Assembly: GCF_024398035.1 (NCBI RefSeq)
Contig: NZ_CP073748.1
Coordinates: forward strand, 177,501 to 241,500
DNA length: 64,000 nt
Reading direction: 5' to 3'
Source of the DNA: Kordiimonas sp. SCSIO 12603
GTDB taxonomy: Bacteria > Pseudomonadota > Alphaproteobacteria > Sphingomonadales > Kordiimonadaceae
The notes beneath the pieces were generated by a model, which was not told the DNA's origin, did not search any database, and saw only the letters and a list, made by a program, of their open reading frames with translations. The position numbers were made by a program, and so were the translations under genes. Of the stretch, positions 2,141-47,002 are shown in pieces (within the stretch, counting starts at the first letter, position 1; each line of letters opens with the position of its first letter).

Positions 2141-3631
2141 CTAAACTGAAAATGCCTCCGTTGCAACTACCGCCTTGCGCCAGCGCATGCGCTTTTCCTG
2201 AACTGCATTTTCAGTTTCTTCAGGCACGAAACCACGTTCGCACTGCCAATTCGCGCTGATATCCTCAACCGAGTGGTAGAGCCCGGCCTGTAAGCCTGCA
2301 AGATAGGCAGCACCCAAAGCGGTTGTTTCCATCACCACAGGACGATCCACTGACACATTTAGAAGCGTAGACAAATTCTGCACCATCCAATCGTTGGCCA
2401 CCATGCCGCCATCAACCTTAAGCACTTCTGGTTTCACACCATCATCAGCCATCGCTTCCAATAAATCTGCTGTCTGGAAGCATACAGCTTCAAGAGTAGC
2501 CTTAACGATTTCCGCTTTACCGCTTGCACGCGTAAGACCAAACATGGCGCCACGCGCTTCTGGATTCCAGTAAGGTGCCCCTAATCCCGTGAAAGCGGGC
2601 ACAAGAATTACACCACTATCAGGATCAGCTTCTTTCACAAGTACCTCAGTTTCTTTTGCGGAACTGATAAGCTTCACTTCATCCCTGAGCCACTGAACAG
2701 CAGCGCCTGCGATAAAGATGGAACCTTCAAGCGCATAAGTGGTTTCACCGTTCAACCGGTAGGCCACGGTGGACAGGAGTTTATTTTCTGAATGAATGCG
2801 TGTCGTGCCAGTATTGAGCATTACAAAACAGCCAGTGCCGTATGTACTTTTAATATCGCCAGCCTTGAAACAACACTGCCCGATAGTTGCAGCTTGCTGA
2901 TCACCGGCCACACCTAATATTGGTACCGGACGGCCGAAAATATTTGGGGCTGTCTCACCATAATTATCAGCAGAATCTTTCACCACCGGCAATACAGAAG
3001 AAGGCACACCGAAAAGCGAAAGCAATTCTTCATCCCAGGCTTGAGTTTCAATATTAAAGAGACTGGTACGACTGGCGTTTGTAGCATCTGTCGCGTGCAC
3101 ACGACCATCCGTCAATCGTGAAATCAGGAAGCTATCAATAGTGCCAAATGCAAGGTCACCTTTTTCAGCTTGCGCTCGTGCGCCTTCCACATGATCCAAG
3201 ATCCAGGCAACTTTGGTGGCGGAGAAATAAGGATCAAGCAACAGCCCTGTTTTCTGCTGAACCGTTTCACTATGGCCAGCCACCATCAAAGATCGGCAAG
3301 TTGCCGAGGTTCTGCGGTCCTGCCAGACAATCGCGTTATAAAGTGCTTTACCTGTATCTCTGTTCCATACGGTGGTGGTTTCCCGCTGGTTGGTAATGCC
3401 AATGGCGATTACCTCATAGCCTTTGCCTTCTGCTTCGCGGAAAGCCGTTTGCGCAGTTTTGAGGCTTGTTTCCCAAATAGCTTCCGGATCATGTTCAACC
3501 CAACCGTCGGCTGGATAAATCTGCGGAAACTCTTCCTGTGCAACAGCAACGATTTCTGCTTCTTTAGTAAAGACCATGGCTCGGCTGCTTGTGGTGCCTT
3601 GGTCCATCGCTAAAATGCACTGCTGTTTCAT
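2141..3631 (-). CDS. glpK: Glycerol kinase
   Basis: GlpK phosphorylates glycerol to sn-glycerol 3-phosphate with ATP in the cytoplasm. The 496-residue length matches the family. The N-terminal ATPase loop [11 protein letters not shown] (residues 8-18) and the glycerol-site motifs NQRETTTVW and IVWQDRR are intact, as are the later [10 protein letters not shown] and FTGLGAPYW motifs. The open frame extends 25 residues further upstream, but GGGAGGAG lies correctly before the ATG at 3631 and the protein family begins here. No glpF or glpD is next to it. It lies just downstream of the acyl-CoA operon but behind that operon's terminator, so it is probably expressed separately. Confidence 0.96.
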
Positions 3632-35608: not shown

Positions 35609-36850
35609 ATGAATGAGTTCGCCCCAATTGGTGGATTAGATGTAGCAGCTATTCGTGCACAGTTCCCTATTTTGAAGGAAACAGTACACGGCAAGCCGCT
35701 GGTATTTCTTGATACAGCCGCGAGCGCACAGCGCCCGTCTTCAGTAATTAATGCCGAAGTTGAACTGTATGAGAAATACTATGCCAACATCCACCGGGGC
35801 GTTTACAAGTTCAGCCAGGATGCCACCACCGCCTATGAGAAAACCCGTGAAAGCGTGCGTGCTTTCATTGGCGCGAAACATAAGCGTGAATGTATTTTTG
35901 TACGCGGTGCCACTGAAGGTATCAACTTAGTTGCCCAAACATGGGGGCGTGCAAATCTGAAGGAAGGAGATGAAATCCTCCTTACCTATCTTGAGCACCA
36001 TTCAAACATCGTGCCTTGGCAGTTGGTTGCGGAAGAAAAAGGCGCAACGGTAAAAGCTGTGCCTGTACTTGAAGATGGCAGCCTTGATATGGATGCCTAC
36101 CGGAGCATGCTGAACGAGCGCACCAAAATGGTAGCTTTCACACATGTATCCAACTCAATAGGCACCCAGACAGACGCCAAAGAAATCATCCGTCTCGCCC
36201 ATGATGCAGGCGCCCTTACACTCATTGATGGGTGTCAGGCCGCGCCGCACTTGAAAATTGATGTGCAAGATTTAGACGCTGATTTCTATGCCTTCTCAGC
36301 CCATAAAATGTATGGCCCGACAGGCATTGGTGTAATTTACGGTAAAGAAGCGCTTCTTGATGCAATGCCGCCATGGCAAGGTGGCGGGGATATGATCTCC
36401 ACTGTTACGTTCGAGAAAACCACCTTCAATGATCTACCGCACAAGTTTGAAGCGGGTACACCGAACATTGCAGGCGGTATTGGCTTTGACCATGCGATTG
36501 AATTTATGAATGAGATCGGCGTTGAGCGCATAGCAGCTCATGAGGCTGATCTCTTGAAGTATGCCACAGAACAACTATCTGCCATGAATAGCGTACGTTT
36601 GATTGGTACAGCACCAAAGAAAGGTGCGCTGATCAGCTTTGTTATGGAACATGCACACCCGCACGATATTGGCACTATCCTTGACCAACAAGGTATCGCC
36701 GTTCGTGCAGGCCATCACTGTGCTCAGCCGATTATGGATAATTTTTCCATCCCCGGCACAGTAAGGGCAAGTTTTGGTGTTTATAATGACAGGAGCGATG
36801 TAGATGCTCTTGTGGTTGGCTTAAAGAAAGTAATGGATATTTTTGGATGA
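35609..36850 (+). CDS. sufS: Cysteine desulfurase SufS
   Basis: SufS is the PLP enzyme that removes sulfur from cysteine for cluster assembly. The 413-residue product has ATEGINLVAQTWG, LTYLEHHSNIVPWQL, the PLP-Lys motif FSAHKMYGPTGIG and the active-site Cys371 in RAGHHCAQPIMD. It follows sufD by 3 bases and its end overlaps the SufT gene as an ATGA junction. No SufE or SufU gene lies in the operon, so the sulfur acceptor must be encoded elsewhere or bypassed. Confidence 0.95.
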   Translation: MNEFAPIGGLDVAAIRAQFPILKETVHGKPLVFLDTAASAQRPSSVINAEVELYEKYYANIHRGVYKFSQDATTAYEKTRESVRAFIGAKHKRECIFVRGATEGINLVAQTWGRANLKEGDEILLTYLEHHSNIVPWQLVAEEKGATVKAVPVLEDGSLDMDAYRSMLNERTKMVAFTHVSNSIGTQTDAKEIIRLAHDAGALTLIDGCQAAPHLKIDVQDLDADFYAFSAHKMYGPTGIGVIYGKEALLDAMPPWQGGGDMISTVTFEKTTFNDLPHKFEAGTPNIAGGIGFDHAIEFMNEIGVERIAAHEADLLKYATEQLSAMNSVRLIGTAPKKGALISFVMEHAHPHDIGTILDQQGIAVRAGHHCAQPIMDNFSIPGTVRASFGVYNDRSDVDALVVGLKKVMDIFG

Positions 36851-37419
36851 CCGAGAACCGAGCAACCCGCGATATTTTGGACCTGAGCGTACCAGCTGGT
36901 GACGCTGATTATCCTGCGGACAATATGCCGAAAAAATCTGTTGAACGCCCGCGTGTTGATATGGCTGGCGTCGAAGCTGCCACACAGCCTGAGGTAAGCC
37001 CACAAGAAGGAGGCTATTTCCTCAACAAGTTTCTTGAGCAAACCGAGAAAAATGAAGCTGAAGCAGCAGCAAAAGAAGAGGCAGCCAACACTCCCGTTGA
37101 AGCACCCGCTGATGCTGAAACACTGCAGGCAAACATTGTTGAAGCGCTCCGCGAAATTTATGATCCAGAAATTCCAGTAAACATCTATGAAATGGGCCTT
37201 ATCTATAGCGTTGATGTGGCATCTGATTTCTCGGTATCCGTTACTATGACCCTGACAACACCTCATTGTCCAGTAGCTGAAACCATGCCTGGTGAAGTAG
37301 AACTGAAAGTAAGTGGTGTGGCTGGCGTGAACGGTGTAACCGTAAACCTTGTTTGGGAACCAGCATGGGATATGAGCCGCATGTCTGATGAAGCACGCCT
37401 TGAGCTGGGCTTACTCTAA
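36847..37419 (+). CDS. sufT: SufT-type DUF59 (MIP18 family) Fe-S maturation protein
   Basis: The 190-residue product has a C-terminal DUF59 domain of about 95 residues: EALREIYDPEIPVNIYEMGLIYSVDV, MTLTTPHCPVAETMPGEVE (conserved Cys in TPHCPVAE) and VWEPAWDMSRMSDEARLELGLL. SufT assists Fe-S cluster handling. The first 95 or so residues are acidic, Ala/Glu-rich and likely disordered, with DNMPKKSVERPRVD and a short QEGGYFLNKFLEQ motif; this extension is long for the family. It overlaps sufS by 4 bases. Confidence 0.9.
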   Translation: MTENRATRDILDLSVPAGDADYPADNMPKKSVERPRVDMAGVEAATQPEVSPQEGGYFLNKFLEQTEKNEAEAAAKEEAANTPVEAPADAETLQANIVEALREIYDPEIPVNIYEMGLIYSVDVASDFSVSVTMTLTTPHCPVAETMPGEVELKVSGVAGVNGVTVNLVWEPAWDMSRMSDEARLELGLL

Positions 37420-37430
37420 GGAAATTGAGC

Positions 37431-37760
37431 ATGAAATCAGCAGTAACCATTACAGATAAAGCCGCCGAGCATATCAAAGCACTTCTTGCGAAAAAGCCAG
37501 AGGCCAAAGGCTTGCTTCTTGGTACCGAAACACACGGTTGTTCAGGGCTTGGTTACACCGTTGATTATGTGCTGGATGATGCAGGTGATTTCGAGGTGGT
37601 GGAAGACAAAGGCGTGAAAGTGTTTGTTGACCGTAAAGCCCTTCTTTTCATTCTCGGTACAGAAATGGACTGGGAAGACAGCATGTTTTCAACTGGCTTT
37701 AAGTTTTCCAATCCTAATGAAAAAGGCCGATGTGGTTGCGGGGAAAGTTTCCACGTTTAA
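37431..37760 (+). CDS. A-type Fe-S carrier (HesB/IscA/SufA family)
   Basis: The 109-residue product has the A-type carrier fold. Its three conserved Cys are in THGCSGLGYTVDYV and the C-terminal GRCGCGESF. It transfers clusters from the SUF scaffold to target proteins. It is the last gene of the suf operon and a terminator follows. A TTG at 37425 is in frame, but AAGGA lies better before the ATG at 37431. Confidence 0.93.
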   Translation: MKSAVTITDKAAEHIKALLAKKPEAKGLLLGTETHGCSGLGYTVDYVLDDAGDFEVVEDKGVKVFVDRKALLFILGTEMDWEDSMFSTGFKFSNPNEKGRCGCGESFHV

Positions 37761-37762
37761 CG

Positions 37763-37795
37763 AAAAAAGCCTTCCAATCGGAAGGCTTTTTCATT
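37763..37795. terminator. Bidirectional terminator between suf and trhP
   Basis: Seven-base GC arms GCCTTCC and GGAAGGC enclose a four-base loop AATC. They are flanked by a run of six A on the left and five T on the right, so it can terminate both the suf operon (plus) and the convergent trhP gene (minus). Confidence 0.9.
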
Positions 37796-37796
37796 T

Positions 37797-39458
37797 CTAA
37801 CTGGCAATAGCTTCATCCAGTTCTTCATCTGTCATTTTCTTCTCAAGCAGTTGTCCTTGCTTTTTCTTTGCAAGCAGTGTGCGAGCTTTCTCATACAGCG
37901 GATCGTGCCAGAACATCAAACAACCATTACAGCCCTTGCCGCAGCACCCTTCAGTACCCCTGCGCGGTGTTTTAAAAGTTCGGTCACTGTCTCGCTCATC
38001 AAGAGACTGCTGCAGTTTCTCCCGCTTTTCCTCATAACCTTGCTGGGTGCCTCGCCCAAGCTCCAGCTTCTGGCTTTCTGCATCCAGCTTAATCCGGTCC
38101 CACTGCTCTTGTGTAAGGGCTTTTTCCTTGCGGATAATAGTCATCGCGGGGAAATCATTCGTCAGCGATGAAACCTCTTCCTGATCGAACAGACTGAATG
38201 GCACCCTGATAAACGGTGTCGTGCTGGCATTTACCTCTTCTGTCACACGGCCATTTTCCGCATTTTCATATTCATATAGGCGGATAAGCATAATATCCCG
38301 GCGTTTCGGTGAAACAAACTCAAGCACATCCCCTGCGATCAATTTGTTTTTCACCTTAAGGATATAGGCATCTTCCTGCACTTCATGAACTACAGCAGCA
38401 TACTCATAATCCGCGAGTGTATATGTTTCCTCAAAACCGTGCGCATAGTTGGTAAGGCGTCCATCATGGAACGCAAGCGTATAGCCGCGGTTTGGAACCG
38501 TTGAAAGCTCCTTCATATAGTCATCGGCACGCCAATTTGTGGGATCATTATACCAATCATCAATCGCCATACGGTAGGCACGCGCCACAAGGCCAACATA
38601 GTATGGGCTTTTCCCCCGGCCTTCCACCTTCAGGCTATCAACCCCAATTGAAAGCAGATCGTTGAGCTTCGGCATAATACAGAGATCTTTGGAATTGAGG
38701 ATATAAGTGCCCCGCTGGTCTTCCTCAATCGGTAGCAGCTCACCTGGGCGGTAATCTTCCTCAAGGAAAAACTCGAACAGTTCCAAGTTCTCTTCCGTAA
38801 GGTTCAGCTCCTTAACCGTGCCGTCCTTAAGGCCCATATGCACCTTGTATTTCCAGCGGCAACTGTTCGCGCAAGCCCCTTGGTTTGCACCGCGTTCCGC
38901 CATAAAGTTGGAAAGCATACAGCGGCCAGAATAGGTCATGCACATAGAACCGTGGACAAAAGCCTCTAGCTTGATATCCGGGCATTTTTCGCGGATTTCT
39001 TTCAGTTCTTCGTAGGAAACCTCACGGCCAAGTACTACAAGCTTCGCGCCCAGATCCTGCCAGAACTTTACTGAATGCCACGAACATACATTAGCCTGCG
39101 TTGAGATATGCAGTTCAAGCTCAGGCGCATGTTGTTTCACATACATAAACACACCTGGATCAGCCACAATAAGGCCATCCGGTTTTACTTTACGTACCGT
39201 TTCCACAAACTGCGGCAGTTTGGTAATGTCTTTATTATGGGAAAATAAGTTTAGCGTGAGATACACGCGTTTGCCAAAGCTGTGGGCAAACTCCACACCT
39301 TCAACCACTTCCTCAAGCGAGAAAGCAGATTTGGTGCGGAGCGACATATCAGGGGTACCAAGGTAGACGGCATCAGCACCATACAGCACCGCTGCCTTTA
39401 GCTTTTCAAGATTGCCGGCTGGCATTAAAAGCTCTGAGCGGTGCGTATGTTCTGTCAT
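37797..39458 (-). CDS. trhP: U32-family tRNA hydroxylation protein, TrhP-like
   Basis: The 553-residue product is a peptidase-U32-fold protein of the TrhP (YegQ) type, which with prephenate supplies the 5-hydroxyuridine at position 34 of tRNAs. It has ELLMPAGNLEKLKAAVLYGADAVYLG at the N-terminus, CMTYSGRCMLSNFM and NQGACANSCRWKY with the conserved Cys residues, and a C-terminal extension ending GCCGKGCNGCLMFWHD that looks like a second Cys cluster. The length exceeds E. coli YegQ by about 100 residues because of that tail. RlhA, an rRNA-directed paralogue, is longer and less similar by eye. trhO follows on the same strand, 15 bases upstream. Confidence 0.85.
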   Translation of the reverse strand: MTEHTHRSELLMPAGNLEKLKAAVLYGADAVYLGTPDMSLRTKSAFSLEEVVEGVEFAHSFGKRVYLTLNLFSHNKDITKLPQFVETVRKVKPDGLIVADPGVFMYVKQHAPELELHISTQANVCSWHSVKFWQDLGAKLVVLGREVSYEELKEIREKCPDIKLEAFVHGSMCMTYSGRCMLSNFMAERGANQGACANSCRWKYKVHMGLKDGTVKELNLTEENLELFEFFLEEDYRPGELLPIEEDQRGTYILNSKDLCIMPKLNDLLSIGVDSLKVEGRGKSPYYVGLVARAYRMAIDDWYNDPTNWRADDYMKELSTVPNRGYTLAFHDGRLTNYAHGFEETYTLADYEYAAVVHEVQEDAYILKVKNKLIAGDVLEFVSPKRRDIMLIRLYEYENAENGRVTEEVNASTTPFIRVPFSLFDQEEVSSLTNDFPAMTIIRKEKALTQEQWDRIKLDAESQKLELGRGTQQGYEEKREKLQQSLDERDSDRTFKTPRRGTEGCCGKGCNGCLMFWHDPLYEKARTLLAKKKQGQLLEKKMTDEELDEAIAS

Positions 39459-39473
39459 CTTGTCCTCTATATA

Positions 39474-40472
39474 TTAGCCCTCGCCAGCCTCCGCTCTCTC
39501 GCGGTCAGCTTCCTTTTGGGCAGCCTTTTTCGCCTGCGCTTCTGTGCGCACATGTTCCATATCAACGGCCAAATGCTCTTCATTGCGCTTTTTTGCAAGC
39601 TCAATCTGCTTTTGGCGCTCTTTTGACGCAGCCTTCTTTTCATCAGACAAGCTATCGAAACAGCGTGGGCAGCTTACGCCCTTCTCATATTTTGGAGATT
39701 TTTTCTCTTCTTCCGTGATAGGCCAGCGGCAACCATAACACTGGTCATACTCGCCTTCTTCAAGGCCGTGGCCTACAGAAATACGGCTATCAAAAACAAA
39801 GCACTGGCCTTCCCACATGCTTTCTTCCGCAGGTACCTCTTCAAGATATTTCAAGATACCACCTTCAAGGTGATACACTTCCTCATATCCTTGTGCTTTC
39901 ATATAGGCTGTGGATTTTTCGCAGCGGATACCACCCGTACAGAACATTGCCACTTTCTTTTTTGAACGCAGCATTTCTTCATTGTCTTTTTCCCACTGCG
40001 GGAATTCACGGAAAGTTTCTGTCTCCGGGTCAACCGCACCTTTAAAAGTACCGATTTCATATTCGTAATCGTTGCGGGTATCCACAAGCACTACATCAGG
40101 ATCACTGATAAGCGCGTTCCAGTCTTTCGGTTTTACGTAAGTACCAACGATATCGTTCGGGTCAGTACCCGGCACACCCATGGTTACGATTTCTTTCTTT
40201 AGGCGAACCTTCATACGGAGGAACGGTGCATCCTCTGCCCAGCTCTCTTTGTGCACAAGATCTGTGAACTCAGGGATACTGTGAAGGTAAGCGAGAAGCG
40301 CGCGAACGCCAGCTTCAGGGCCAGCTACTGTGCCGTTAATACCTTCTTCCGCAAGGAGGAGTGTACCCTTCACATCGTTATCGTCGCAAACCTGCTTCAA
40401 AGGTTCCTGAATGTCTTTATAGTGTGGGAGACGCACAAATTTATAGAGCGCTGCAACCAAATAGTTAGACAT
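39474..40472 (-). CDS. trhO: tRNA uridine(34) hydroxylase TrhO (rhodanese family)
   Basis: TrhO (YceA family) makes 5-hydroxyuridine at tRNA position 34 using oxygen. The 332-residue product has the N-terminal domain with [14 protein letters not shown], a rhodanese domain with [17 protein letters not shown] and the active Cys in [15 protein letters not shown], and a zinc-like C-terminal segment with two CxxC pairs, in [10 protein letters not shown] and [10 protein letters not shown]. The Ala/Lys/Glu-rich tail is probably a helix. It lies directly upstream of trhP on the same strand. Confidence 0.92.
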
Positions 40473-40513
40473 GGTCTTTTCCTAATCCATACAATAATTG
40501 GCGGCTCTCATAC

Positions 40514-40546
40514 GCTGTTTTCCCGAAAAGTTCAAGAAAACTGCGA
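40514..40546. other. Inverted repeat downstream of the first XRE/membrane module
   Basis: Ten-base arms CGCTGTTTTC (40514-40523) and GAAAACTGCG (40537-40546) pair with one mismatch around a 13-base loop. It lies 18 bases past the stop of the XRE regulator and 42 bases before trhO. There is no T-run, so it may be a weak terminator or a protein site. Confidence 0.3.
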
Positions 40547-40564
40547 TATACGGCAAAGCTATGC

Positions 40565-40855
40565 TTAAAGTACAATCCCAATTGCCAGCCCCATACCAAA
40601 AGCAAAGGCGACAACTACGAGCAACAACGGATCAATATTTAAGCCTGCCTTTGACGCTGTATCTTCCACAATGATTTGTTTTTGCGGGATTTCCAGTACA
40701 GCACAGAGACTGAGGACAGTCTCTGGTGACGCAACTCCCAAACGTTCAACCCGCTGAACAGTACGCAAACTTAAATCACATGCTTCCGCCAAATGCTGCT
40801 GGGTCCAGCTCTTGGCGTTGCGATTCTCTTTTATTAAAGCAGCATTAATTTGCAC
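40565..40855 (-). CDS. Membrane-anchored XRE-type regulator (module 1)
   Basis: The 96-residue product starts with an XRE helix-turn-helix (NRNAKSWTQQHLAEACDLSLRTVQRVERLG, about residues 11-40). It continues through ASPETVLSLCAVLEI and ends in one hydrophobic helix (LLLVVVAFAFGMGLAIGIVL). It should be a membrane-tethered DNA-binding protein, N-terminus inside, with no outer domain. It starts at GTG with GAGGGGTGGCAAA in front, 12 bases after the module partner gene. Its first 55 residues are about 60% identical by eye to the regulator at 41562-41891. Function is unknown; see findings. Confidence 0.8.
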   Translation of the reverse strand: MQINAALIKENRNAKSWTQQHLAEACDLSLRTVQRVERLGVASPETVLSLCAVLEIPQKQIIVEDTASKAGLNIDPLLLVVVAFAFGMGLAIGIVL

Positions 40856-40867
40856 TTTGCCACCCCT

Positions 40868-41341
40868 CTAAAATGTCTTCGCAAGATATTCGCCGAGTGC
40901 GGCACCCAGAACTCCTGCAACCACACCTGCGACAAAGCACTGGAAAATGGTCTTCTTGAAATTCCTGCTTTTCATCGGCTTGCGGATATCATGACCAATT
41001 TGCTTGTCATTTTTATACAGAGTACATTCAAGTTCCGCTTTCATTAAGCTCTTCATATAGAACGTAAGCCTGTAGCGGTCCTTACCAATGGTGAATTCGT
41101 GTTCAGTTGTACGGGAAGTAGCATTACGCTTTTCAGATACAAGCTGATCGTTGAAATACACCCACTCCTTACCGTTCCAAACAGAACCGTTAGCGGCAAT
41201 TTCTTCTTCACCATCTTCAAAAACAAACCAGTAACCATCACGTAAGGTTACTTCTTCAATGTTCATGTTTCTGTCTCGCTTCACCGAATTTGTCATTGCT
41301 GTCATGATTAGTCCTATCAGTAATATGTATTTAATCGCCAT
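40868..41341 (-). CDS. Membrane-associated protein with module-specific beta-rich domain (module 1)
   Basis: I do not recognise this 157-residue protein. It begins MAIKYILLIGLIMTAM, a short hydrophobic segment. A domain of about 85 residues follows (EEVTLRDGYWFVF, then VWNGKEWVYFNDQLVSEKR, then a stretch ending ELECTLYKNDKQIG) that alternates hydrophobic and polar residues like a beta sandwich. A basic stretch and a last hydrophobic segment (IFQCFVAGVVAGVLGAALG) close it. The same order occurs in the protein at 41896-42462. A start 12 bases upstream is possible, but GGAAAAACTT precedes this ATG and it matches the partner's start. The XRE regulator follows. Confidence 0.72.
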   Translation of the reverse strand: MAIKYILLIGLIMTAMTNSVKRDRNMNIEEVTLRDGYWFVFEDGEEEIAANGSVWNGKEWVYFNDQLVSEKRNATSRTTEHEFTIGKDRYRLTFYMKSLMKAELECTLYKNDKQIGHDIRKPMKSRNFKKTIFQCFVAGVVAGVLGAALGEYLAKTF

Positions 41342-41413
41342 AAGTTTTTCCATTCGGCGTTATTGCCGTTTGTCCTTTGCGGTGATTTGCATATTGGTGA
41401 AAACACGAAAAAA

Positions 41414-41473
41414 TACGCCGACAGCAGTGCGCCAGTACCCCTTACTGGCGTATGACACAGGGTGTGTCGCATA
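41414..41473 (-). promoter_or_regulatory. Upstream region of module 1 with elements shared with module 2
   Basis: TACGCCGACAGC (41414-41425) and ATGACACAG (41452-41460) recur, as TACGCTGACAGC and ATGACACAG, upstream of module 2. Between them here are the inverted arms CGCCAGTA and TACTGGCG (41430-41450). ATGACACA and TGTGTCGCAT flank a GGG at about 41461. They lie 70-130 bases before the module 1 start, where a promoter and operator are expected. Confidence 0.4.
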
Positions 41474-41503
41474 AAAAAAGCCGCAAAAAACTGCGGCTTT
41501 TAT
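41473..41503. terminator. Terminator between the two XRE/membrane modules
   Basis: Eight-base arms AAAGCCGC (41477-41484) and GCGGCTTT (41493-41500) enclose an eight-base loop. On the minus strand the stem ends in a T-run, placing it after module 2 and before module 1, so each module is likely its own transcription unit. Confidence 0.75.
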
Positions 41504-41530
41504 TGCATATCTAAAATTAGTATATTTGGA

Positions 41531-41553
41531 GTGTGACATAATAAGTGTCACAC
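41531..41553. promoter_or_regulatory. Perfect inverted repeat just past the module 2 regulator
   Basis: Eight-base arms GTGTGACA and TGTCACAC flank a seven-base A/T-rich spacer, only 8 bases beyond the regulator stop. It is symmetrical in the way operators are. It is distinct from the terminator that follows and has no T-run. Confidence 0.35.
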
Positions 41554-41561
41554 CAATAGCC

Positions 41562-41891
41562 TCATGGCTGCAGCAGAAAATAGGTAAAAATACTTCCCAT
41601 AGTCATCCCAAACAATATGGCGACAACGATAAGCAGCGTGATGCCGCTTGAAGAAATTGCGCTTGAGAAATAGCTTTGTTCTGCCTCTGCATCATGCTTC
41701 AAAATAACCAGATCATCAGGCTTTAATTCCAAAACCGAACAAAGTTCCATGATTGTTTCAGGTGATGCTGCACCAAATTTTTCTACCCTGTGAACAGTTC
41801 GCACACTTATATTGCAGGCATCCGCAAGATGTTGTTGTGTCCAGCTTCTACTGAGGCGAGCATTTTTTACAGTTGATGCATTGATATCCAT
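41562..41891 (-). CDS. Membrane-anchored XRE-type regulator (module 2)
   Basis: The 109-residue product parallels the regulator at 40565-40855. It has an XRE helix-turn-helix (SWTQQHLADACNISVRTVHRVEKFG, about residues 16-40), then ASPETIMELCSVLEL, a short charged link with KHDAEAEQSYF, and one terminal transmembrane helix (ITLLIVVAILFGMTMGSIFTYFLL). It starts with ATG 4 bases after the partner gene, so the two are translationally close. An operator-like palindrome and a terminator follow. The function is unknown, but the layout implies signalling at the membrane. Confidence 0.8.
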   Translation of the reverse strand: MDINASTVKNARLSRSWTQQHLADACNISVRTVHRVEKFGAASPETIMELCSVLELKPDDLVILKHDAEAEQSYFSSAISSSGITLLIVVAILFGMTMGSIFTYFLLQP

Positions 41892-41895
41892 TACA

Positions 41896-42462
41896 TCACC
41901 TACGCTTCAGAAGCTTTACAAGTATGAGAACTGTAAGCGCTGTTAACAGAGAAACCGTTGTGCCCAGTATAAACCCCCGAGCAAATTCTGCTGATAGCTC
42001 CAGAGTGATTACCAACGCCGATACAAACAAAATACCAACACCAGAACCCATCAAAAACAAAGGTAGGAATTTTTTAAATATCTGCCACGGTGTACCTGTA
42101 TAATAAGCCTTGGATGCTATCCCGACTATTTTACCGTTCTTCAGTGCCGTACATTCCCACTCAGATGTCAGGAAATCACTGGTTTTGATCCGCACTTCAT
42201 ATTGGTGGCCGCCCTTAGTGAATCGAAATGGTTCATTCTTCTTAATCAAACTACGGTTGGAAGCCACCTTTTCACCACGGACATAGAAATCTTCACGCCC
42301 TGACCAAGCAGAAGCATTGATAATCAGTTCTTCACCATCAGCATCAAAAACAAACCAGTAACCATCCTTCAAAGTTACCTCTTCATTCAAAATACTCTCT
42401 TTCATATCCTTCGCCAGAAACGCCATTATCACTCCTATCAAGCAGATATATTTTATAGCCAT
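41896..42462 (-). CDS. Membrane protein with module-specific beta-rich domain (module 2)
   Basis: The 188-residue product begins MAIKYICLIGVIMAF, like its module 1 counterpart. It has the same central domain (EEVTLKDGYWFVF, then SGREDFYVRGEKVASNRS, ending WECTALKNGKIVG) and then two or three transmembrane segments (FLPLFLMGSGVGILFVSALVI and FILGTTVSLLTALTVLILV). The extra helices are absent from module 1. The frame runs 30 residues upstream, but GGGAT lies before this ATG. The domain recalls the FAIM-type beta sandwich in the YVxGE and ECxLxK spacing, a weak impression only. Confidence 0.72.
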   Translation of the reverse strand: MAIKYICLIGVIMAFLAKDMKESILNEEVTLKDGYWFVFDADGEELIINASAWSGREDFYVRGEKVASNRSLIKKNEPFRFTKGGHQYEVRIKTSDFLTSEWECTALKNGKIVGIASKAYYTGTPWQIFKKFLPLFLMGSGVGILFVSALVITLELSAEFARGFILGTTVSLLTALTVLILVKLLKRR

Positions 42463-42530
42463 AGTTATCCCAATAGACACCTGTGTTTTGTGCCTCAACG
42501 CATTGAGATATATGATAAAAGGATAAGGAT

Positions 42531-42568
42531 TACGCTGACAGCCACATGACACAGCATATGCCTGTCAG
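42531..42568 (-). promoter_or_regulatory. Upstream region of module 2 with elements shared with module 1
   Basis: TACGCTGACAGC (42531-42542) and ATGACACAG (42546-42554) match elements before module 1 with one mismatch over 21 bases. Here CTGACAG (42535-42541) and CTGTCAG (42562-42568) also form an inverted pair. It lies 70-106 bases before the module 2 start and 37 bases from the hemY stop. Confidence 0.4.
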
Positions 42569-42604
42569 ATAACTGTCTGTTTTATTCTACCTGAATTATA
42601 GGAA

Positions 42605-43954
42605 CTATACCTGAGTATCAGCGAGTAGTGCGATGGTAGGATCACCACCCTCAGCTTTATTATGGCCAGAGACAATATCAGCCTTATTTTGCCAAAGGGT
42701 CGTATCAAACCCATCACAGCTTTCACAAAGCGGTGCCCACATACGCGGCTGATGCCCGCAATCTGTACATTGCCAAATAGCACCTTCAAGGGCATGTTCA
42801 AGAGCTGTTTCCACTGGATCAGGATCTTCGCCAAGCGCATGAACAAGAGCGAGTTTATATTGCCATGCCGTTCGTGTAGGGTGTTCTGCAAGCAAACGGT
42901 CAAGTACCGGTTTTGCTCCGGAATATTCCTGTGCATCCATCAAGGCATCCGTAAGAAGTAATAAGGATTCTGGATGATCCGGATTCTTTGCCACAAGCGC
43001 TCGCACACGCGAGAGCCACCCTGCCGGAGCTTCGGCAGCATCAAGTTCCTTGTAAAGCTTCGCATATGCCGGATGTGGTTCTTGCCCCCAAGCATCCATA
43101 ATAATTTTTTCAGCTTTTTTACCGTTACCACCTGAAAGCTCAAGTCTCGCAAGCGCTGAAACCGCAGCATAAAAAGCTGGCTGTAACGACATCGCTTTCT
43201 TAAAGCCTTTACGCGCTATATCGCGATCACCTTTCAAGTTATGTTCCGCAGCCTCCGCGTATGCAAGGGTTGCTTGATGGCGCTTGCCAAGATCATCAGC
43301 AACCAAGCCTTCTTTCATCACCTTGGAAAGGGCCGCTGAAGCCTGCTCCCAATTCCCTGCTGCAACCTCAAGGGTAAAGAGCGTTTTCAAAACCCACGGA
43401 CTTTTTCTGTTTTCTTCAAAAGCAACCCGAGCAAGGCGCAAAGCTTCACTTTCCCGGCCGGTACGGCGCGCCTCTGAAAGCAGACCACGCAGCCCAAGGA
43501 AGCGCCCTTCATCGGTTTCTTCAAGCGCTGCAAACCTTTTCGCGGCTTCTTTATGATTGCCGCCACGTTGGGCTGCTTCTGCGGCGATCAAATGCACCAT
43601 CGGCTGCGGCGGTAATAATACCTCGGCCTGTCCAGCCAATCGCCCGGCTAATTTATGATCGCCCGCAGACAGTGCGACAAGCGACTGATTAAGAAGCTTG
43701 AGGCCGCGCTGTTGGCGCTTTACCACCTGATTACTACCGAAAAGTGGCATATCACGCTTTATCCAGCCCACAAGCCACACCACGCCACCAGTAAGCGCAG
43801 CCAAACCAACGGCAACAAATGCAAGAGAAGCGAAACTTGCGTAAATTCGGCGGCCTTGAAAATCAATTGCCACTTCACCAGGGTTATCAGCGAGCCAAAC
43901 CGCCGCTACTGACACAACCAGAATTGCCAGAAACCAGAATATGATCCGTGTCAT
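42605..43954 (-). CDS. hemY: HemY-type tetratricopeptide membrane protein
   Basis: The 449-residue product has two N-terminal membrane helices (IIFWFLAILVVSVAAVWLA, then VAVGLAALTGGVVWLVGWI). The cytoplasmic or membrane-edge part is full of tetratricopeptide helices. It fits HemY, found beside hemC/hemD in proteobacteria, whose exact role in haem synthesis is unclear. The C-terminus has a two-CxxC knuckle, CTDCGHQPRMWAPLCESC, a rubredoxin-like zinc or iron site resembling the end of LapB. It is the last gene of hemC-hemD-mic60-hemY. Confidence 0.87.
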   Translation of the reverse strand: MTRIIFWFLAILVVSVAAVWLADNPGEVAIDFQGRRIYASFASLAFVAVGLAALTGGVVWLVGWIKRDMPLFGSNQVVKRQQRGLKLLNQSLVALSAGDHKLAGRLAGQAEVLLPPQPMVHLIAAEAAQRGGNHKEAAKRFAALEETDEGRFLGLRGLLSEARRTGRESEALRLARVAFEENRKSPWVLKTLFTLEVAAGNWEQASAALSKVMKEGLVADDLGKRHQATLAYAEAAEHNLKGDRDIARKGFKKAMSLQPAFYAAVSALARLELSGGNGKKAEKIIMDAWGQEPHPAYAKLYKELDAAEAPAGWLSRVRALVAKNPDHPESLLLLTDALMDAQEYSGAKPVLDRLLAEHPTRTAWQYKLALVHALGEDPDPVETALEHALEGAIWQCTDCGHQPRMWAPLCESCDGFDTTLWQNKADIVSGHNKAEGGDPTIALLADTQV

Positions 43955-43957
43955 ATC

Positions 43958-45187
43958 TTATTCTCCGGCTCTAACTGGTGAACCAGCGTTGGTCGCAGCC
44001 TTGATCATACGGCTTACAGCAGCATCTGCCTCAACATAGGCCTTGGCTTTTGCTGTCCATGGGGCCATAGCTTCTTTGACAGGAGCAGAGAGAGCTTCTA
44101 ATGCTTTCAAAGCACCTGCCGTATCTCGAGCAGCCAGCCTTCTTTCCGCCTGCAAAAACACTGCGTCATCTCCTGATGCACCAGCATCTGTTCTTCGGCT
44201 GGTAAAAAGACTGCTGAGGAAACCACCATCAGCTTTTTCTCCGGCCGTTAATGCGCCTGATACAGCCGCATCAAAATCACGTACTAGCGAAATATAAGGG
44301 CTGATCCCTGCCGAATGAGTTTCCAAACGTGCGAATTCAGCTCCCATCAGCTGCTGATCAATCGCTGGCAAATCTGCAATATCTGTGCGTAGGGCATCCA
44401 GTTCAGAAGAGAAATCAAGACCAGCAAGTACCCGATCTTTTAAACGAACAAGTGCTAACACCAAACGACCACGCGGACTTGCTTCAAGGGCACCAGCCTG
44501 TACAGCCATTACACTGTTTTCAATAGCCTCAAGACGTGCTTTGAATTGAGCATTCTCTGCTTTTGCAAGCGCTAAAGCACCACGAAGCTGGGAAACTTCA
44601 GGATCTCCTTCGCTATTCAGCGCACTTAAGCGTGCGATATCGCCTGTTAAGCGTTCTATATCTGCCTTCAATGCCACAAGCTGAGCAGAATCACCGGCAT
44701 TACCGACAGCGGGGTTATTAGCAGCAGCAAGCTCTAACTGACGCTGCAAATCCGCACGTGCTGTATTGGCTGCTGTAATATCAGCAGATTGCTGAGCAAG
44801 AATTTCTTTATAAGTAGCAAGGCTGGCTTTCAAAGCCTCAATTTCTGCCTCTAATGCGCTGCTATCAAAAGGAACCGAAGCCGGAACAGTTCCCACGCTT
44901 ACATCTTCACTTAAAAGGCCAAGCGCAATTAACTGTTTTTCCGCATAAGGTGCTGCAAACAAACCACCAACAAAGGCTGCTAAAACACCTGCCGTGATCC
45001 AGCCCGCTTTTCCTGATGAGGTTTTAACCACCGCAGGCTGTTTATCCTCGAACTTTGGAGTTTCAGAAGATACTGTTTCTTCAATGATTTCGGCTTCTAT
45101 GAACTCAGTAGCTCCTGATGCAGAAGCTGACTGACTATTCTGATCTTGCGGAAGCTCGGTTTCATCCGTATTTGATGCTTCTGCCAT
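43958..45187 (-). CDS. Mic60 (mitofilin)-like inner-membrane protein
   Basis: The 409-residue product has an acidic N-terminal tail (1-50), one transmembrane helix near residues 61-79 (AGWITAGVLAAFVGGLFAA), a coiled-coil region around 105-230 rich in ALEAEIEALKASLA-type heptads, and a C-terminal helical domain with ERRLAARDTAGALKALEALS. This order and its place between hemD and hemY match alphaproteobacterial homologues of mitofilin/Mic60, which shape the inner membrane. A TTG frame runs 15 bases longer; GGCGGGGA precedes the ATG. The identity rests on architecture and location. Confidence 0.8.
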   Translation of the reverse strand: MAEASNTDETELPQDQNSQSASASGATEFIEAEIIEETVSSETPKFEDKQPAVVKTSSGKAGWITAGVLAAFVGGLFAAPYAEKQLIALGLLSEDVSVGTVPASVPFDSSALEAEIEALKASLATYKEILAQQSADITAANTARADLQRQLELAAANNPAVGNAGDSAQLVALKADIERLTGDIARLSALNSEGDPEVSQLRGALALAKAENAQFKARLEAIENSVMAVQAGALEASPRGRLVLALVRLKDRVLAGLDFSSELDALRTDIADLPAIDQQLMGAEFARLETHSAGISPYISLVRDFDAAVSGALTAGEKADGGFLSSLFTSRRTDAGASGDDAVFLQAERRLAARDTAGALKALEALSAPVKEAMAPWTAKAKAYVEADAAVSRMIKAATNAGSPVRAGE

Positions 45188-45203
45188 TTTATTCCCCGCC
45201 AAT

Positions 45204-45902
45204 TTATCTACTTAGTAGGCTTAAGAGTGCTTTTTCCTCAGGCATGATAGACCGCTTGATCTCTCTCCATGGCCCTAACAAACTATCCGCTACCCGCTCA
45301 GAAAGGCAGTAAGCATCCAGCTTGGGGAGCCAGTCATGGAAACCGCATTCAGATATCGCTTCTTCAAAGATGGTGGCTGTACGCGGAGAATAAAAGAGGA
45401 CTGCATCAATTCCACCATTTTCCATCATTTCCTGTACCGCAGGCGGGAAAGCCCGATTAGGGAGAGATTGATAGGTAACAGTATTTTCTGCATCCAACCC
45501 AGCATCACGCAGAACCGAAGCAATATTATAGGCGATTTCACTGCCACATAGGTGGCTATAGTCCCGTTTTTGTTTATCACCGCACTCTAAAAGAAGCGGC
45601 ACAAGCTGACGAGCAGTTCCCGGGCCAACCGTTATATTGGTAAAACCTTGCGAACGGGCAACTTCTGCTGTTTGTTCGCCCACAGCAAAGATTGGACGAT
45701 CTTTTTTTCCTATATTTGCAAGACCATACCGTGCACCATTTTTACTGGTTACCACGAGCGTACGAGATTCATCCGGAATCTCAAAAGAGACCGGAGCAAT
45801 CTTGATCATAGGCGCATAAAGAACATGATATCCAAGCGCTTCCAGTTTCTGCCCTGTTTCCCCGGCTTCTGTCTCCGGGCGCGTTACAAGAATAGTTTTC
45901 AT
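45204..45902 (-). CDS. hemD: Uroporphyrinogen-III synthase
   Basis: HemD closes and flips the D ring of hydroxymethylbilane to make uroporphyrinogen III. The 232-residue product has the weakly conserved family pattern: TRPETEAGETGQKLEALGYHVLYAPMIKI at the start, VTSKNGARYGLANI, and AVLFYSPRTATIFEEAI in the second half. It starts within the hemC stop (ATGA overlap) and sits between hemC and the Mic60-like gene. The family is poorly conserved, so context carries part of the call. Confidence 0.92.
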   Translation of the reverse strand: MKTILVTRPETEAGETGQKLEALGYHVLYAPMIKIAPVSFEIPDESRTLVVTSKNGARYGLANIGKKDRPIFAVGEQTAEVARSQGFTNITVGPGTARQLVPLLLECGDKQKRDYSHLCGSEIAYNIASVLRDAGLDAENTVTYQSLPNRAFPPAVQEMMENGGIDAVLFYSPRTATIFEEAISECGFHDWLPKLDAYCLSERVADSLLGPWREIKRSIMPEEKALLSLLSR

Positions 45903-46858
45903 GCGATCGCTTCTTGTACTTCCTTGTTAAGTTTTTCGAAGAAAGCTTGGCCTGCTTCTGCTTTTATGTCCAGCCCAACTTTATTTCCGAGAGCATTTGC
46001 AGCCTCTAAAGTCGCATCCGTTTCCGCGTTTCGCTCAAAAATCTTCGAACCATCAAGCGATAACAGCTGCGCTTTCATAAGGATATGATCACCATCAACT
46101 GTAGCATGCGCAGCAATTGGTGTGCGGCATGAACCGTCAAGCGCCGCCAAATACGCGCGCTCGGCTACCACTTCAAGTTCTGTATTTGAACAGTGAAGTG
46201 GGGCAAGCATATCCCGCATACGGTCATCATTCTCCCGGATTTCTACAGTTACAGCCCCTTGTGCCGGCGCCGGCAGAAATTCTTCCAGTGAGAGCTTTTC
46301 AGTAGCCGCACTTTGCATATCCATGCGGTTCAAACCAGCTAGCGCGAGGAAAGTTGCATCTGCTTCCCCTTCACCCAGCTTTCTCAGCCGTGTTTGAACA
46401 TTACCGCGGAAAGTAACCACCTTAAGGTCAGGACGAAGATGAAGAGCCTGAGCACGGCGGCGTAGAGAAGCTGTACCCAGAATCGCGCCCTTAGGAAGAT
46501 CGAGGAAATGAGAAAACTTCTCGCTGATAAACACATCACGCGGATCTTCTCTAGGCAGGAATACGGTCAAACATAAACCTTCTGGCAATTTGGTAGGCAT
46601 ATCCTTGCTTGAATGTACGGCGCAATCGATACTTCCATCAAGGAGCGCTTCTTCGATCTCCTTGGTGAACAGACCTTTGCCACCAGCTGTCATCAAGTGC
46701 TTATCAAGAATGCGGTCGCCCGAAGTTTTTATAACAACAATCTCGATCTGCTCTTCACTCAGGCCGTCATGTGCCTTAAGAAGACGTGCCTTTACATCAT
46801 TTGCTTGTGCGAGTGCCAGAGGGCTGCCTCGTGTGCCGATTTTGATCGATTGTTGCAA
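45899..46858 (-). CDS. hemC: Hydroxymethylbilane synthase
   Basis: HemC joins four porphobilinogen units into hydroxymethylbilane. The 319-residue product has IKIGTRGSPLALAQA, FTKEIEEALLDGSIDCAVHSSKDMPT, GTASLRRRAQ and the cofactor Cys in DGSCRTPIAAHA. The only ATG for the frame lies 63 bases upstream (46921) without a ribosome site. The TTG at 46858 has GGGAG eight bases before it, and the protein family begins close to it, so TTG is preferred; the ATG is an alternative. It leads the haem operon. Confidence 0.93.
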   Translation of the reverse strand: MQQSIKIGTRGSPLALAQANDVKARLLKAHDGLSEEQIEIVVIKTSGDRILDKHLMTAGGKGLFTKEIEEALLDGSIDCAVHSSKDMPTKLPEGLCLTVFLPREDPRDVFISEKFSHFLDLPKGAILGTASLRRRAQALHLRPDLKVVTFRGNVQTRLRKLGEGEADATFLALAGLNRMDMQSAATEKLSLEEFLPAPAQGAVTVEIRENDDRMRDMLAPLHCSNTELEVVAERAYLAALDGSCRTPIAAHATVDGDHILMKAQLLSLDGSKIFERNAETDATLEAANALGNKVGLDIKAEAGQAFFEKLNKEVQEAIA

Positions 46859-47002
46859 GATACTTGCTCCCGGTGCTATGGGCTTACAAAACGCTAGTGT
46901 GCTAGCATATATAAGCAGCATCCACAGTTTTTGAAACTCTATTTGCTTAGGGTTATAGAAGTATTACGGTTCGGCCCCAAGCCCAAAGATGGATTTATTA
47001 TC

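Follow-up and report, generated by a model that had tools for sequence, protein, structure and literature searches.

We report that two adjacent gene pairs of the marine bacterium Kordiimonas sp. SCSIO 12603 (contig NZ_CP073748.1, assembly GCF_024398035.1) represent a conserved two-gene unit carried by marine bacteria, in which a gene for a membrane protein with a predicted FAIM-like fold precedes a gene for a small XRE-type helix-turn-helix (HTH) protein ending in a transmembrane helix, the regulator nearly always lying beside its partner. The pairs occupy positions 40,565 to 42,462 of the window, meaning the whole stretch of 64,000 nucleotides (nt) that was analysed (positions 177,501 to 241,500 of the contig). 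We propose that each pair would work on its own as an autoregulated co-component regulator tethered to the membrane, with the FAIM-like partner as its gate, a reading to which we give a probability of about one half.

Pair A comprises partner gene A (42462..41896, minus strand; 188 amino acids), encoding a FAIM-like domain with two C-terminal hydrophobic helices, and regulator gene A (41891..41562, minus strand; 109 amino acids), encoding an XRE domain (HTH_3) and a C-terminal transmembrane helix with glycines G95 and G99. Pair B comprises partner gene B (41353..40868, minus strand; 161 amino acids), encoding a FAIM-like beta-sandwich (residues 41–124) and a C-terminal transmembrane helix with G143 and G147, and regulator gene B (40855..40565, minus strand; 96 amino acids, GTG start), encoding an XRE domain and a C-terminal transmembrane helix. 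For partner A, the list of open reading frames gives a GTG start at 42552; the ATG at 42462 is the end coordinate used in the original prediction, which had been made from the DNA letters and their translations. The intergenic gaps are 4 nt in pair A and 12 nt in pair B, and the pairs lie 208 nt apart. The shared gene order (partner, then regulator), domain content and strand noted at the outset are borne out.

The partner domain was sought across genomes at several taxonomic levels. With partner A as the query, 9 of 59 genomes gave a match (its own included), and profile searches found the domain in 13 genomes out of 396 at the level of the order (its own among them), in a single one out of 385 for the class (again its own) and in 13 out of 398 for the phylum, counting its own and G016. 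Even among Kordiimonas genomes the occurrence of the module is uneven: 5 of 19 had the partner, that of the window included. Alphaproteobacterial hosts include Kordiimonadales and Emcibacter-type bacteria; gammaproteobacterial hosts include Shewanella, Pseudoalteromonas, Colwellia, Alteromonas, Paraglaciecola, Idiomarina, Kangiella, Pleionea and Wenzhouxiangella.

In the order set, an XRE gene with a hydrophobic tail adjoined the partner gene in 12 of 13 genomes, and in the other (G089) the contig ended first. In 11 further genomes of the phylum set, where neighbours were checked as open frames of at least 75 amino acids in loci of about 3.2 kb, an XRE gene stood beside the domain in two and none in nine, so the partner domain also lives alone. 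When the search began from the regulator, retaining the best 80 of 130 relatives in named genomes, the partner gene was upstream on the same strand in 78 of the 80 loci, the exceptions being L125 and L081, whose contig breaks off 65 nt ahead of the regulator. These counts agree with the original prediction that each pair is one unit, and regulators occurring mostly without the partner were not what we found among the loci kept. Leaving out L081 (contig end), L088 (interrupted regulator) and L125 (no partner found) gives 77 complete pairs, of which 76 have a gap of 0–49 nt between partner and regulator; the remaining value of −82 probably reflects a wrong start. By gene order and spacing, the tethered regulator thus stands beside a co-encoded membrane partner, as in a co-component system. 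Two partner genes precede a single regulator in three loci (L050, L051 and L120). In Shewanella waksmanii (L088), an insert of about 270 nt with inverted ends (about 2735–3005 of the locus), resembling by eye a miniature inverted-repeat transposable element, splits the regulator gene.

A third conserved gene was considered and rejected: flanking families present in at least five loci stayed, bar stray members, within groups at genus or family level. The pair therefore appears to stand alone, at chromosomal sites that are stable.

Structure prediction with AlphaFold2 was made for partner B, and partner A was assigned as its homologue. The model contained one eight-stranded beta-sandwich (residues 41–124), as expected of a FAIM domain, and a helix at 132–160. 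The best structural matches in a fold search with this model were FAIM (PDB 3mx7 and 2kd2); PDB 2kw1 is presumably FAIM as well. FAIM (PF06905) was also the top profile match of the partner family, with a common stretch near the SGK-x-VYV-D/N segment of the alignment, and CEA-family and TIG-type matches ranked below it (E 0.086 and worse). Against FAIM1 (PF06905), 9 of 56 partners matched at E up to 0.1 (best 3.9e-4), a few other Pfam families also being hit weakly; among ten partners rescanned for their bit scores, only that of L053 matched, at 20.6 bits, short of the Pfam gathering cut-off of 22. The two partners of the window had no FAIM1 match in the Pfam scan, which returned for them just a weak DUF7541 match to partner A (E 0.064), and nothing in NCBIfam. 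With FAIM1 as the query, no genome matched at E 0.01 among 299 of the phylum or 31 relatives, and the control genomes were silent too. FAIM has two domains, and the PDB titles name an NTD and a CTD, whereas the partner B model holds a single sandwich; it further differs from FAIM in its C-terminal membrane helix and its place in a bacterial bicistron. On the predicted structure, we class the partner as having a FAIM-like fold and not as FAIM1.

FAIM (FAIM1, Fas apoptotic inhibitory molecule), an animal stress protein, has been described as belonging to the animal lineage and having no relatives, its origin and biochemical role being unsettled, and excerpts of PMC7056718 report that it counters protein aggregates. 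Rather than falling in a well-known family of unrelated function, which would have spoken against the original prediction, the partner domain has as its best match a protein whose own role is unsettled. Among the top hits of searches in the open-licence PubMed Central literature, we saw no account of FAIM relatives in bacteria, nor of the gene pair described here. Several loci (L042–L049 and L038) encode small proteins that match the partner profile and have no adjoining XRE gene, several of them with a terminal hydrophobic stretch; a wider bacterial FAIM-like family may exist.

Both window regulators matched HTH_3 above the Pfam cut-off, and the HTH domain is that of XRE/Cro-C1 regulators (3mlf; HipB, 2wiu), from which the regulators differ in having a membrane helix at the C-terminus and a FAIM-like protein as partner. 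Further analysis of both proteins used alignments chosen to thin near-copies, A4 (56 rows) for partners, in which L096, identical to partner B, was retained, and A5 (50 rows) for regulators. In the third HTH helix, R31, T32 and R35 were invariant in 50 sequences and Q34 was kept in 49. Each window regulator has a single C-terminal hydrophobic stretch, AlphaFold2 placed a helix at 81–107 of regulator A, and the hydropathy of the transmembrane region reached 1.6 or more in all but one of 77 regulators. The anticipated regulator of 96–109 residues with one terminal transmembrane helix was thus recovered (109 and 96 amino acids), with hydropathy and the AlphaFold2 helix in agreement.

Near the C-terminus, the window partners carry one hydrophobic stretch (B) or two (A), and both have an additional short one at the N-terminus. 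Beyond the last helix, regulators have a median of 2 residues and partners 5 (longest 26 and 37; n = 77), tails that in most of them are too short to form an outer domain. The regulator therefore lacks an outer domain, as originally proposed, and the accompanying analogy with ToxR does not hold in its usual sense of outside sensing; nor do such tails fit a periplasmic sensor heterodimer. With the helix at the C-terminus and the DNA-binding domain inside, both folded domains would lie in the cytoplasm. Charges add weakly to this topology: partners have 169 Lys and Arg (56 Asp and Glu) in the 12 residues before the helix versus 48 (40) in the tail, and regulators 121 (58) before the helix versus 34 (8) in the tail (n = 77).

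The helices themselves carry a conserved motif. In each protein, the only helix columns with more than two-thirds identity were two glycines four residues apart, kept in 54 and 53 of 56 partners and in 45 and 47 of 50 regulators; the next-best columns reached 36/56 and 25/50. Among 58 non-redundant pairs, GxxxG was present in 56 partners and 49 regulators, compared with means of 16 and 9 in shuffled sequences. The conservation suggests that partner and regulator pair through their GxxxG faces, hetero- and homo-pairing being indistinguishable in these data.

The regions upstream of the pairs contain a candidate operator. From 79 regions, thinned to 59 (58–59 used as the non-redundant set), TATGACA/TGTCATA was found in 48 of 59 (expected 3.2) and CTGTCATATGACAG, with at most three mismatches, in 39 of 59 (expected 0.6). 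The core box TGACA/TGTCA had 166 occurrences upstream, spread over 51 of the 58 regions, versus 22 in downstream stretches of equal length and 46 in coding ones. Between upstream boxes the prevailing offsets were 12, in 20 regions, and 7, in 19 (of 58 in each case); downstream controls had no two boxes within 30 nt, and coding controls had single pairs. A threshold on the central site selected 35, 35 and 38 regions for the search of its surroundings. A TGACGnCG-like box lay 20–21 nt beyond the central site in 23 of 35 regions (search begun at +20; motif likelihood 114, shuffles 28–34), and an element like G.TTTACTTGCA stood at 46–47 in 21 of 38 (likelihood 94, shuffles 40–44). A weaker AT-rich element ending in TCA was also seen at a similar distance in many regions, around 50 nt ahead of where the central box ends (likelihood 76.7, shuffles 47–53; 38 regions). 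The array was clearest in Gammaproteobacteria. Because a box array precedes the genes, the regulator likely binds DNA. If the G.TTTACTTGCA element is −10-like, the last box would fall near −35 with the others upstream, an arrangement that weakly suggests an activator rather than a repressor.

In the window, probable operator boxes precede both pairs on the minus strand, at 42533..42568 for pair A (TGACA-N11-TGTCA-N6-TGTCA) and at 41416..41471 for pair B (CGACA, TGTCA and TGTCGGCG), the latter also found before the copy in Kordiimonas laminariae. Both sets have diverged from the family array. A predicted sigma-70 site at 42541..42512 (minus strand) overlaps the last box of pair A. An own-gene operator is thus suggested at the family level, with the window diverged and several Alphaproteobacteria indistinct. 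The strict array was found once in each of 5 of 18 genomes, always with the letters that precede that genome's own module, and the backward control once in each of two. With one mismatch allowed, the 14-mer site occurred at 19 places in 11 of 15 genomes (backward control, 5 places), and the 12 places inspected revealed no other promoter site that could indicate a regulon: ten were inside open frames, one was a terminator-like hairpin and one was a module.

Taken together, these features suggest the following mechanism. The partner and the XRE protein would sit side by side in the inner membrane, both folded domains facing the cytoplasm, with helix pairing mediated by the GxxxG faces, and the XRE protein would bind the boxes at its own promoter. 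Because the clear arrays lie upstream of the −10-like element, with one box near −35, self-activation of the pair would be somewhat more likely than repression wherever the array is clear. The FAIM-like domain would be the sensing or gating part, holding or freeing the regulator in response to a cue from the cytoplasm or the membrane surface, which might be misfolded protein or the state of the membrane, by analogy with the anti-aggregation role reported for FAIM. As its output, the system would set the amount of the pair and act at any further sites. A bolder version, which we advance only tentatively, places FAIM in a wider bacterial family at the inner membrane face; in the pair, the FAIM-like domain would sense misfolded or stressed protein or the membrane and control a tail-anchored XRE self-activator through GxxxG pairing.

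Several observations weigh against the gated co-component model. The charge evidence for topology is weak, the regulator tail itself being net positive, and the extra N-terminal hydrophobic stretch of the window partners could alter their topology. Over all 77 pairs, the strict GxxxG motif was present in 74 partners and just 53 regulators, with serine replacing the first glycine of the regulator in Pseudoalteromonas-type rows such as L061 and L094. The partner domain occurs without the regulator in the nine more distant genomes mentioned above, of 11. As regards the operator, 20 of 59 regions exceed three mismatches to CTGTCATATGACAG and 7 of 58 have no exact TGACA/TGTCA; among eight alphaproteobacterial regions, the array is complete only in that of L056, L050 lacks any box and L096 carries a single one. 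Pair A misses the canonical 14-mer, and the genome of the window, module included, has no 14-mer site at one mismatch. The −10-like element is not obvious within the window, and a sigma-70 scan of the window region gave 2 sites versus 4.7 in shuffles.

Alternatively, the XRE protein might sense the membrane alone, with the partner as the regulated effector, for example a chaperone at the membrane surface; we regard this as a possible but doubtful account. According to excerpts of PMC10269533, about 57% of the transmembrane transcription regulators (TTRs) that a survey brought to light lack a second recognised domain, and one proposal is that the membrane serves as a signal. The reported action of FAIM on aggregates (PMC7056718, in excerpts) would suit an effector, as would the occurrence of the partner domain without the regulator, several times with a terminal hydrophobic stretch. 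This account leaves unexplained, however, why partnerless regulators are so rare among the 80 loci kept and why GxxxG is maintained in both helices.

It is unlikely, in our view, that the pair is toxin-antitoxin-like, with a membrane partner that slows growth and an XRE gene serving as the autoregulating antitoxin. Two small, nearly touching genes with boxes ahead of them would suit such a system, as would the scattered distribution (13 genomes out of 396 in the order), the sub-threshold HTH likeness of the regulators to Y4mF/HipB-type antitoxins and RstR-type repressors, and the lack of another promoter site among the 12 near-match loci inspected. On the other hand, the flanks are stable within genera, one neighbour family being common to 17 Pseudoalteromonas loci; one partner query matched none of 72,556 plasmid and 50,697 phage records; three partners had no PADLOC hit; and, to our knowledge, a membrane-tied antitoxin would be unusual. 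The plasmid, phage and PADLOC results likewise led us to reject a mobile or defence element. PADLOC gave only weak HTH matches for three regulators (e.g. RmrA, capH and HTH_VI), and PHROG gave scattered partner matches (best 8.9e-5, for one of 56 members). A RodZ-like membrane scaffold, binding protein instead of DNA, is very improbable, for although RodZ-type proteins are membrane-anchored HTH proteins and HTH_25, which we take to be a RodZ-type family, matches regulator A weakly (E 0.027), the spaced boxes ahead of the genes and the conserved R31, T32, R35 and Q34 speak for DNA binding.

The co-component model has counterparts among known systems. As described in excerpts of PMC10269533, TTRs have a DNA-binding domain, a transmembrane region and no further recognised domain, and the window regulators likewise combine a predicted DNA-binding domain, in both copies, with a predicted transmembrane region; the pair adds a conserved partner protein, GxxxG in both helices and a candidate operator. 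In VtrA/VtrC and ToxR/ToxS, too, neighbouring or overlapping genes encode a tethered transcription factor together with a membrane partner, with HTH domains of the CadC superfamily, pairing periplasmic domains (that of VtrC being lipocalin-like) and the regulator gene first (PMC9214523, in excerpts). By contrast, the pair described here combines an XRE domain with a partner domain predicted to be cytoplasmic, lacks a periplasmic domain and has the partner gene first. How TTRs without a recognised second domain are controlled is an open question, as excerpts of PMC10269533 state, and the module, with its conserved partner and its candidates for a contact surface and an operator, makes it testable with two small genes. 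It would also allow bacterial FAIM relatives, so assigned by predicted fold and weakly by profile, to be studied genetically. The bolder version, if true, would amount to a signalling principle in which both domains are inside the cell and contact is made within the membrane.

The two pairs of the window are homologous well beyond chance. Their regulators are identical at 34 of 56 positions across the HTH (60.7%), matching the roughly 60% over 55 residues estimated by eye at the outset, and at 47 of 88 across the aligned length; the partners are identical at 46 of 114 (40.4%). Local alignment scores were 222 for partners and 216 for regulators, the best of 200 shuffles each being 47 and 39. 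In the partner tree, A clusters with Kordiimonadales NORP107 and NORP254 (98/88) to the exclusion of B, which is identical to the Kordiimonas laminariae copy and otherwise unplaced. Only pair B was seen in K. laminariae, between the same kinds of neighbours. The pairs are therefore old paralogues lying side by side. The description "tandemly duplicated" thus stands as regards adjacent homologous pairs, while recent copying finds no support in the partner tree. An old duplication within this lineage is possible, B being unplaced in the tree and both window partners sharing an N-terminal MAIKYI-type stretch. In NORP107 and NORP254 (L050 and L051), a separate small frame beginning MMIKSICLVG (about 1660–1855 of L050) precedes the first partner gene; its beginning is similar to the hydrophobic stretch at the N-terminus of the two partners in the window (MAIKYI.LIG), as though a leader protein had been joined on or split off.

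Between the pairs, a hairpin followed by a T run (41473..41501, minus strand), spotted by eye and absent from the automatic terminator listing for the window region, is probably a terminator, in which case each pair would form its own transcription unit. Directly past regulator A, upstream of pair B, lies an inverted repeat, GTGTGACA-N7-TGTCACAC (41531..41553, minus strand), whose offset of 12 is that of the commonest box pair of the family. In the surrounding region (35609–46921 of the window), a rhodanese-like gene lies on one side of the pairs and one of HemY type on the other, and genes of the suf and hem types are close by (all named by eye); the module of L012 also adjoins suf-type genes.
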